Part shown: positions 2,354 through 3,964 of the stretch, piece by piece | How the letters are laid out: each line of letters begins with the position of its first letter | Numbering within the stretch: the stretch's first letter is position 1 | DNA from: a virus | Strand: one strand, 5' to 3' | IMG/VR virus record: IMGVR_UViG_3300027971_000221 | Location: 1-23,693 of that record | DNA length: 23,693 nucleotides | The notes under the pieces: model-generated | Databases searched by the model: none | What the model was told of the DNA's origin: nothing | What the model saw: only the letters and a program-made list of their open reading frames with translations | Made by a program: the position numbers and the translations under genes

Positions 2354-2574
2354 TTTGCGACACCTGTAAAGCATGGACCCGTTGCCTTGAGACTAGGCAC
2401 AAGTACGACAATCAAACCTATCGCCGGTATGAGTGCGCTAACGGCCACCGGTTTTCGACGATGGAGAGAGTAAAACTTAAAGAGGTGAAAAATGCAGATA
2501 ACAGCAACATTCCAAGACGAACAGGAGGCGATCAAAGCGATCCACTCGGAACGCGCTTGGCAGACCCTGTATGA
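2350..2574 (+). CDS. Small zinc-ribbon protein resembling the NrdR N-terminal domain
   Basis: A 74-residue product starting MICDTCKAWTRCLETRHKYD. Cys3-x2-Cys6 is followed by RRYECANGHRFSTMERV, which resembles the NrdR zinc ribbon (CxxC, then RRREC, then RFTT-E). In NrdR the second pair is CxxC; here it is Cys29-x3-His33, so the fourth ligand is probably His. The ATP-cone of full NrdR is absent, so this is a stand-alone ribbon, likely a nucleic-acid-binding protein. It is coupled to the previous gene through ATGA. Its last 83 bases overlap the next gene in another frame; the C-terminal tail from about residue 48 lacks any recognisable motif. The DNA-binding role is inferred from the fold only. 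Confidence 0.65.
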   Translation: MICDTCKAWTRCLETRHKYDNQTYRRYECANGHRFSTMERVKLKEVKNADNSNIPRRTGGDQSDPLGTRLADPV

Positions 2575-2683
2575 GATCAATCATGTGCTGCGCCAAAATA
2601 GAAAACACGGCCTACCTTTTGAGCAGGCCGTGTCTGAGATACAGGCATCTGTAAACGATGCCCTGGCGCTGATTCCGGATTAA
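2492..2683 (+). CDS. Small phage protein, unknown function
   Basis: A 63-residue helical protein starting MQITATFQDEQEAIKAIHSE and continuing with a Trp-Gln-Thr-Leu helix and EQAVSEIQASVNDAL. An AGAGGTG box sits at about 2480-2486, 5-9 bases before ATG 2492, so the start is well supported despite the 83-base overlap with the zinc-ribbon gene. The gene ends the plus-strand cluster; its TAA shares bases with the stop of the converging hyperacidic gene. A terminator serving the minus strand lies inside its coding sequence. Function is unknown. Confidence 0.65.
   Translation: MQITATFQDEQEAIKAIHSERAWQTLYEINHVLRQNRKHGLPFEQAVSEIQASVNDALALIPD
2596..2633 (-). terminator. Intrinsic terminator for the phosphoesterase/acidic-protein operon
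   Basis: ACACGGCCT (2605-2613) and AGGCCGTGT (2625-2633) form a perfect 9-bp stem with an 11-base loop. Read on the minus strand, the stem is followed by TTTTC and TATTTT, a fair U-tract; on the plus strand no T-run follows. It lies about 50 bases past the stop of the minus-strand acidic gene, as expected for its terminator, and inside the converging gene at 2492-2683. Confidence 0.65.
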
Positions 2684-2952
2684 GCAGCCTCGGCTTCTTC
2701 TTCCTCTTCGTCGTCGTACTCTTCCTCGTCGTCGCCCCAATCTGCCTCGTCGTCTTCGACCAGGAGCCACTCGCCGGTCTCTTCGTTCAGCCAGTACCAA
2801 GCGTCGTACTCAGCGTCGAACCAGCAGTAGCAATCTGCCTCATCGTCGTACTCGTACTCTTCGCCTTCTTGAAAGCAATCGACTAACGATTCGCAATCGC
2901 TGTTGATTTCTACTTCGGTGGAATTGTTGATGATAAATGTGAATGAATACAT
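2680..2952 (-). CDS. Hyperacidic Trp/Tyr-rich small protein (possible DNA mimic)
   Basis: A 90-residue protein starting MYSFTFIINNSTEVEINSDC. I count 23 Glu and 14 Asp (41% acidic) and no Lys, Arg, His or Pro, giving a net charge near -37. The middle is rich in aromatic residues in a repeating acidic-aromatic pattern (CYCWFDAEYDAWYWLNEETG), and the C-terminus is a run of Asp/Glu. AAGGA at 2961-2965, formed by the stop region of the upstream phosphoesterase gene, is its ribosome site, so the two are co-translated. Strong negative charge on a small phage protein is the hallmark of DNA mimics such as T7 Ocr, but no homology to Ocr or ArdA is seen, so that role is a hypothesis. It could also be an acidic chaperone. 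Confidence 0.72.
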   Translation of the reverse strand: MYSFTFIINNSTEVEINSDCESLVDCFQEGEEYEYDDEADCYCWFDAEYDAWYWLNEETGEWLLVEDDEADWGDDEEEYDDEEEEEAEAA

Positions 2953-2962
2953 GGTGAAGTCC

Positions 2963-3931
2963 TTAAACGTTGATGATTTGACCGCGAAACTCTACCTGAT
3001 CGTCGGACCACTTATGAACCAACTCAGGCCACAAAATCCTACCACCTTTGAATGTCAGGACCGCAAATCCGGACCGGTGGTTCAGAGGATTCCCTTCTCC
3101 ATAATCAAACTGAGCGCCATAGGGTTCGGCAAGCGTTCCAGTATCTACGCCATACCTGTTGCCCTTGTAATCAGCAAATGGCGTTACCTTCAGCGAGTGC
3201 AGATGGCCGGTGACAATCGAGATACCGGCGTTCACCGTATTGTTGTGCGCGGCATGGACGCCGGATCGATAGCGGTGCTTGATGATGCAGTCCGGTGTAG
3301 GCCAGACAGACCAGGCAAACTCCCAGGCTGGCAGATGGTCCTGCAGCTTAAACCCATGCACCTCGCGGTACTGAGGAGCTTGGGACGCCAGCTTGTTGGC
3401 AAAGCGCGTGTCGTGGTTGCCCCATGTAAACAGCAGCTTGCAGTTGTGCCTGGCTGCCTTGGCCGTCTCCTCGATCTCGCCAAGGTGGGCCTGCACCGCC
3501 TTCAGCTCTTCAATTACGGATGGAGTCTTGGACCAGCCCAGCGGGTTGTGCCTGCTGATAGTAGCCCCGTCGAATGCGTCACCATTGCTGATGACGGCGT
3601 GCGGTTTCAGTTCCTTAATCGCCCACAGCAGGCCACGGTACGCGGTGGTGTACTCGCCAGGCCAGAAGTGCGCGTCACTGAAAACGATTATGGTCTGGTC
3701 AAGGATGCCAAGATCCACTCGGTTCAGCGAGGTCTGAATTGGCTGGAACTGAGAGTATTTTTGCGCCCTCATATCAAAACCAATTAGGGGCTGGTTCATA
3801 TCCTTTTCAATTCTGCGCCGTCTGTTGTTCACAGAACGCTCAGAAACATCCAAGTGTTCAGCGACTTTAGAACAAGATCCAAAACGCTTCCAGACATTGA
3901 TAAACTCTTCACGGGAAACTTTAGGTTGCAT
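2963..3931 (-). CDS. Calcineurin-like metallophosphoesterase with N-terminal HTH
   Basis: The 322-residue product has two parts. Residues about 5-42 form a helix-turn-helix (FINVWKRFGSCSKVAEHLDV then SERSVNNRRRR). Residues about 80-250 carry the metallophosphoesterase motifs in order: Asp86-x-His88 (FSDAHF), Gly-Asp118 (NGDAFDG), Gly-Asn172-His173-Asp174 (WGNHDTR), His226, and Gly242-His-Leu-His245 (TGHLHS). All dimetal ligands are present, so an active phosphohydrolase is expected; substrate (phosphoprotein, nucleotide or DNA end) cannot be told. ATG 3931 is favoured over the longer frame to 3964 because GGAG lies 6 bases upstream. The gene is followed after ten bases by the hyperacidic gene and is divergent from a plus-strand HTH gene. 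Confidence 0.88.
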   Translation of the reverse strand: MQPKVSREEFINVWKRFGSCSKVAEHLDVSERSVNNRRRRIEKDMNQPLIGFDMRAQKYSQFQPIQTSLNRVDLGILDQTIIVFSDAHFWPGEYTTAYRGLLWAIKELKPHAVISNGDAFDGATISRHNPLGWSKTPSVIEELKAVQAHLGEIEETAKAARHNCKLLFTWGNHDTRFANKLASQAPQYREVHGFKLQDHLPAWEFAWSVWPTPDCIIKHRYRSGVHAAHNNTVNAGISIVTGHLHSLKVTPFADYKGNRYGVDTGTLAEPYGAQFDYGEGNPLNHRSGFAVLTFKGGRILWPELVHKWSDDQVEFRGQIINV

Positions 3932-3964
3932 GGTGACTCCACAAAGTTGCGTGGAATCTAACAC

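Follow-up and report, generated by a model that had tools for sequence, protein, structure and literature searches.

Introduction

Small hyperacidic phage proteins have repeatedly proved to inhibit restriction enzymes, RecBCD or RNA polymerase, and new hyperacidic inhibitors are hard to find by homology. T7 Ocr contains 34 aspartate and glutamate residues in 117 amino acids, together with 6 lysine and arginine residues. T7 gp5.9 has a pI of 4.0 and forms a coiled coil (PMC9836394). In Gp44 of phage SPO1, residues 56–122 are disordered, consist of aspartate and glutamate to 57%, and contain no arginine, lysine or histidine; this acidic stretch, devoid of lysine and arginine, acts as a mimic of single-stranded DNA and contacts the beta and beta' subunits of RNA polymerase (PMC8208478). 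The OCRE domain is built of imperfect octamer repeats with aromatic triplets, and its twisted beta-sheet binds proline-rich tails (PMC5127646).

The gene analyzed here lies in a stretch of viral DNA of 23,693 nucleotides, referred to below as the window. It encodes a 90-residue protein in which one feature of the DNA-mimic class, strong negative charge with few basic residues, is present.

Results

The acidic gene, its product and its surroundings in the window were annotated as follows.

2680..2952, minus strand: gene of the hyperacidic 90-residue protein (open reading frame, composition, 141 viral relatives, purifying selection)
2863..2952, minus strand: N-terminal segment, residues 1–30, short version (alignments; the models are of low confidence here)
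2743..2862, minus strand: core, residues 31–70, four decapeptide repeats (period 10, AF2 strands, near-invariant residues)
2683..2742, minus strand: low-complexity polyacidic tail, residues 71–90 (alignment; repeat number differs between relatives)
2963..3964, minus strand: gene of an HTH and calcineurin-like metallophosphoesterase, MPE (Pfam Metallophos, 1.7e-06; phrog_221, 1.1e-28)
2960..2963, minus strand: ribosome-binding site AGGA, overlapping the MPE stop codon (sequence)
2603..2635, minus strand: intrinsic terminator (stem of 14 pairs, 7 of them G-C, and a T-rich tail)
2492..2683, plus strand: convergent small open reading frame, the stop of which overlaps that of the acidic gene

Composition and repeats

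The reading frame at 2680-2952 on the minus strand starts with ATG. Recomputation of the composition gave 23 glutamate and 14 aspartate residues, reproducing the count of 37 acidic residues in 90, with no lysine, arginine, histidine or proline, that was reported in the first-pass annotation. The protein also contains 16 aromatic residues, being rich in tryptophan and tyrosine, and has a pI of 4.05 and a charge of about −37 at pH 7. Net acidity reached 0.41 per residue, against a maximum of 0.175 among 5,935 other open reading frames of at least 60 amino acids from related loci. Across 112 open reading frames of the family, mean net acidity was 0.38 per residue, with a mean of one lysine or arginine per protein.

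The core consists of the decapeptides EEYEYDDEAD, CYCWFDAEYD, AWYWLNEETG and EWLLVEDDEA, in this order. Self-similarity of the protein peaked at a period of exactly 10 (z = 3.2, p ≈ 0.0015), and offset 10 was also the best in two diverged relatives, which bears out the earlier description of spaced aromatic-acidic repeats; in two of these three members, offset 8 came second. The N-terminal segment is longer in many relatives, where it was modeled as a beta-hairpin followed by a helix. In the tail, aligned relatives differ in carrying one or two EEEYDD units, and others carry EDEA repeats. Tail length thus varies while acidity stays, which points to charge being kept rather than sequence.

Relatives and selection

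Successive searches of viral contigs yielded 41, 122 and finally 141 loci encoding relatives. In the 33-residue core, mean pS was 0.66 and mean pN 0.11 (pN/pS ≈ 0.17), indicating purifying selection on the reading frame, with the core conservation exaggerated because the loci had been retrieved partly through core patterns. A search for the DNA leader described below was independent of these patterns, and it also recovered variants without the first conserved cysteine. An antisense artefact or low-complexity noise had been considered and was dropped, as the reading frame is conserved. Judged from the substitution pattern, the 90-residue product is a real protein and its coding is not due to chance.

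No relative was found by sequence in Pfam, PHROGs, NCBIfam, PADLOC or the PDB, and none was found in 84,980 bacterial and archaeal genomes. Weak PHROG matches obtained for relatives (best 0.005) were taken as composition matches. Cultured phages likewise gave no relative in tblastn, an absence that is not firm, since the low-complexity filter of BLAST may mask the core; blastn matches in Gordonia and Streptomyces phages were 24–46 nt long and were attributed to chance. A structure search of viral proteins led to uncharacterized proteins of uncultured Caudovirales phages with identities of up to 63%, so that relatives have already been deposited without a function. The earlier statement that no homolog is characterized agrees with all libraries searched. 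On the strength of these searches, the family is coherent, widespread in viral contigs and undescribed in the libraries covered. One copy of the acidic gene was detected per contig in 20 contigs chosen for carrying it. These contigs, which may be incomplete, gave no match to a phage integrase; this suggests virulent phages and makes use of the protein in the lytic cycle likely.

Operon of the window

The acidic gene is the last of a minus-strand run that includes capsid, tail-fiber and other late genes. The stop codon of the MPE gene lies 10 nt upstream of it and overlaps the AGGA site, and coupling of the two genes is therefore plausible, as the proposal of co-translation had it, although only one branch of the family is arranged in this way. 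The product of the MPE gene is basic (pI 8.6), as is its HTH. A terminator had also been assigned to the acidic gene as its own: a stem and T-run are indeed present at 2635-2603 on the minus strand, 45–77 nt past the stop codon, but they terminate the whole late operon and not the acidic gene alone. The view of a compact accessory unit was upheld as far as the unit is accessory, its form as a co-operon with MPE being confined to one branch. A convergent open reading frame of 62–76 amino acids occurs at the same place in many close relatives.

Some further observations concern the window itself. It contains no tRNA genes. At 990-1045 on the plus strand, a promoter-like TGTATGAT and TTTGGAG precede a small plus-strand gene at 1043, and this element resembles the leader of the relatives without its stem. 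At 180-916 on the minus strand, a weak RuvC-like match (Pfam E = 0.06) adjoins a gene for an HTH_31 protein.

A leader specific to the acidic gene

In relatives from two groups, one convergent with MPE and one linked to the capsid gene, the acidic gene is preceded by a leader in which TGTARGAT, a stem of TGCAGC-loop-GCTGC, TTTGGAG and the ATG follow each other in this order.

L174:9953-10003, L125:9951-10003, L041:5802-5853 and others: gene-specific leader with a -10-like TGTARGAT, a 5' stem-loop and a strong ribosome site

The stem was supported by covariation: 97.4% of the cells were paired and three pairs had changed on both sides, while versions slid along the alignment reached at most 63%. 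With a covariance model, 34 copies were detected in 46 sources (728 kb); every one lies upstream of the acidic gene, and they include sequences outside the training set and L041, the most diverged member. A scan of 2.9 million viral contigs with a DNA pattern gave 22 matches, all at genes of the family; 21 precede a full-length member and the remaining one an N-terminus cut by the contig end. The window gave no convincing match to the leader, the best covariance-model hit (E = 0.27) lying at another gene; in the window's branch, which lacks the leader, the acidic gene is read with MPE.

The conserved TGTARGAT box is promoter-like and represents a -10-like candidate promoter in the relatives. 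A hairpin with a T-run is also seen in their sequences straight after the stop codon of the acidic gene. By this sequence organization, the gene is in these relatives an autonomous cassette composed of a -10-like box, stem-loop, ribosome site, gene and terminator. This cassette, together with its dedicated leader, stands on firmer ground as a new finding than DNA mimicry does.

In L125, the acidic gene and an HNH gene lie behind the capsid gene (L125:9874-10830). The same site is empty in L283 (contig G013; 2206-2461), the capsid protein of which is 96% identical to that of L125, and G013 carries its copy of the acidic gene beside its MPE. The contrast between these phages indicates alternative sites for the acidic gene within one capsid lineage, and the gene often passes from one phage to another as a self-contained unit of expression.

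Genomic settings of the relatives

Settings were counted for 111 gene copies from non-redundant loci. In 46 copies, the group to which the window belongs, MPE lies on the same strand and usually ends 9–11 nt upstream of the acidic gene; the two genes are convergent in 32 copies, and no MPE occurs in the locus in 33. Within the last group, a Mu gpT-like major capsid gene lies upstream in 29 of the 33 copies and a convergent HNH endonuclease gene downstream in 30. No MPE was detectable in 12 contigs of this group of up to 63 kb, which may be fragments; as a control, the same query matched 16 of 16 MPE-linked contigs. In three loci, the capsid gene is separated from the acidic cassette by tRNA genes for Pro and His, in one also for Trp (L097:573-828, L145:8852-9021, L146:9724-9893).

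In L170, the acidic gene facing MPE occurs twice, with 61% identity between the acidic copies and 75% between the MPE copies; an endolysin-like gene lies between the two pairs (L170:1009-4388), and the pair has apparently been duplicated. In L172, a convergent acidic-MPE pair sits between endolysin and holin.

The slot behind MPE was occupied by an acidic protein in 31 of 31 resolvable loci with an MPE at least 78% identical, and two loci with an MPE at 65–67% identity carried an unrelated 47-residue gene instead. In some phages, the acidic protein in the slot is a different one of about 60–70 amino acids, with 34–45% aspartate and glutamate and without the aromatic core. Such swapping in of a core-less protein indicates that an acidic protein is what persists behind MPE. 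The alternative protein (MYQFEMLIESGSITI...) is encoded at L207:4011-4214 and in about 20 other MPE loci, and its N-terminus is possibly homologous. Comparison of the N-terminal segments of the window protein, the long form and the core-less allele by hhalign gave local E-values of 0.0009 and 0.026 and weaker values globally, which makes their homology only suggestive.

Predicted structure

The AF2 model of the 90-residue protein had a mean pLDDT of 56.6, with values below 50 over much of the sequence outside the core. Strands were placed at residues 34–36, 41–46, 51–56 and 61–65, with a pLDDT of about 70–77, and the core is accordingly predicted to be a four-stranded beta-meander. Disorder throughout the protein, which would speak against a DNA mimic, was thus not seen, the core being predicted as ordered, and no homology to a protein unrelated to DNA was found either. 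Given the low overall confidence, the spacing of surface charges cannot be judged.

In fold searches against solved structures, nothing was matched significantly, Ocr, ArdA and Ugi included. The best Foldseek row for Ugi had E = 4.3, and the rows for Ugi, OCRE (2mxw) and a WW domain, with E of 4–7, were at chance level and were rejected as evidence of kinship. Fold comparison with VIA gave Z of at most 3.0 for every chain. Concerning a fold that places carboxylates in a DNA-like manner, the matches were all non-significant and the model carries the mean pLDDT given above. For the proposal of a DNA mimic, extreme acidity and repeats were thus confirmed, but a significant fold match to Ocr or ArdA was not obtained and confidence in the model is only moderate.

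Discussion

The explanation tentatively favored, at somewhat less than an even chance, is that of a small cytosolic phage protein acting as a polyanionic decoy. In this picture, the core of repeats would fold into a small aromatic beta-meander with clusters of carboxylates on its turns, and the disordered polyacidic tail would add charge. Core and tail together would bind to the basic surface through which a host protein contacts nucleic acid during lytic infection, with RNA polymerase, a nuclease or a nucleoid protein as candidate targets, and the bound decoy would keep nucleic acid off that protein. We infer this action from several properties: a net acidity far above that of all other open reading frames in related loci, high acidity across the family combined with strong purifying selection on the core, and the persistence of an acidic protein behind MPE even without the core. 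The dedicated leader and terminator of the relatives are also what would be expected of an independently expressed effector. SPO1 Gp44 (PMC8208478), Ocr and gp5.9 (PMC9836394) provide precedents for such a decoy. Several points stand against the decoy. No DNA mimic was matched significantly in structure; the window gene ends a late operon, which is late timing for an anti-restriction protein; core conservation is unusually high for a protein engaged in an arms race; and the core aromatics point to a binding face that is hydrophobic and not purely electrostatic.

Those aromatics are central to one of two serious rivals, a peptide-recognition module, in which the aromatic face of the meander, with acidic turns on its flanks, would bind a basic or proline-rich tail on a protein of host or phage, as in OCRE and WW domains, while the polyacidic tail steers electrostatically. 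The decad repeats, with aromatic triplets in consecutive predicted antiparallel strands, parallel the OCRE domain (PMC5127646). OCRE and a WW domain also appeared among the Foldseek rows, but at chance level, the period is 10 and not 8, and Pfam gave no match. OCRE and WW domains are not known to be this acidic, and the module is considered rather unlikely. The other serious rival, a partner or regulator of the neighboring MPE that shields its basic HTH or controls its activity, draws on the presence of MPE beside the gene in 78 of 111 copies, the basic character of MPE, the constant occupation of the slot behind closely related MPEs, and the pairs of L170 and L172. It has to contend with the 33 copies without MPE in the locus, including the 12 possibly fragmentary contigs without a detectable one, with the unrelated gene behind more distant MPEs, and with the gene's own leader in two branches, where the gene is consequently not co-regulated with MPE; we regard it as unlikely.

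The capsid-linked group brings in two further explanations. An acidic decoration, scaffold or charge-balancing component of the virion or of head assembly would suit the group in which the gene immediately follows the major capsid gene (29 of 33 copies), as well as the place of the window copy at the end of a structural operon. The gene is nevertheless far from capsid genes in other groups, its site is empty in the phage with a 96% identical capsid protein, where it lies beside MPE, and it has its own promoter-like leader; polyacidic tails are not known in decoration proteins, and such a role appears improbable. The gene might also be carried along by a homing endonuclease as neutral or selfish cargo, persisting because the neighboring HNH gene moves it: 30 of the 33 copies in this group are followed by the convergent HNH gene, and an otherwise similar phage has neither gene at the capsid site. 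Purifying selection, the single copy in each of the 20 contigs (chosen for having the gene), the retention of the gene without HNH in L169, and the lack of an HNH gene directly adjoining it in the MPE-linked branches examined make this highly improbable.

For the favored decoy, DNA mimicry remains a plausible mode of action. Its most far-reaching form would be a new class of beta-meander nucleic-acid mimic, in which a decapeptide acidic-aromatic sheet with a polyacidic tail, spread across capsid types in a cassette of one gene and a dedicated 5' stem-loop leader, disarms a common host DNA- or RNA-binding protein; this is regarded as doubtful. If it held, a beta-meander would be added to a class known mostly from helical folds. 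Even if the protein is not a mimic, the family illustrates well how a single-gene effector can be mobile in phages that appear to be virulent, an interest founded on a cassette that occurs once per contig and at alternative sites. The repeat core is also amenable to testing, and the gene-specific leader serves as a marker of the family at the DNA level.

Comparison with known systems

The nearest functional analog of the 90-residue protein is SPO1 Gp44, which likewise has an N-terminal module, disordered acidic sequence and an acidic stretch that lacks lysine and arginine. The Bacillus phage protein differs in its size of 27 kDa and its DNA-binding, Xis-like N-domain (PMC8208478). No description of Gp44 includes an aromatic decad core, and the PDB sequence search gave no Gp44 match.

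T7 Ocr (gene 0.3) and T7 gp5.9 are likewise small hyperacidic phage proteins, but their folds are helical, unlike the predicted beta-meander. Homology to Ocr was not detected by blastp (E = 39) or by hmmsearch (0.3 bits after bias correction), and no PDB profile chain was obtained at E ≤ 10. Ugi, the uracil-DNA glycosylase inhibitor of PBS2, is a small acidic phage protein with a beta-sheet, from which the 90-residue protein is set apart by the lack of a sequence match at E ≤ 10 in the PDB profile search as well as by the Foldseek result.

With the OCRE domains of RBM5 and RBM10, the protein has in common consecutive repeats with aromatic triplets and antiparallel strands, in its case predicted, after an N-terminal extension. 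OCRE has an octamer period, belongs to eukaryotic splicing factors and is not hyperacidic. Octamer repeats of the OCRE kind were not found, with a best offset of 10 and no Pfam match; concerning a small antiparallel sheet with aromatic surfaces, the model gave a predicted four-stranded meander and the OCRE row in Foldseek had E = 4.1.

In its organization, the cassette resembles phage morons, which likewise combine a promoter-like box, ribosome site, single gene and terminator and occupy different sites in related phages. Both an own terminator and presence or absence at a given site (L125 against L283) were found here. The family probably differs from lysogenic-conversion morons, as no integrase was found. 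It is further distinguished by its conserved 5' stem-loop, with the window copy representing the form without a leader.
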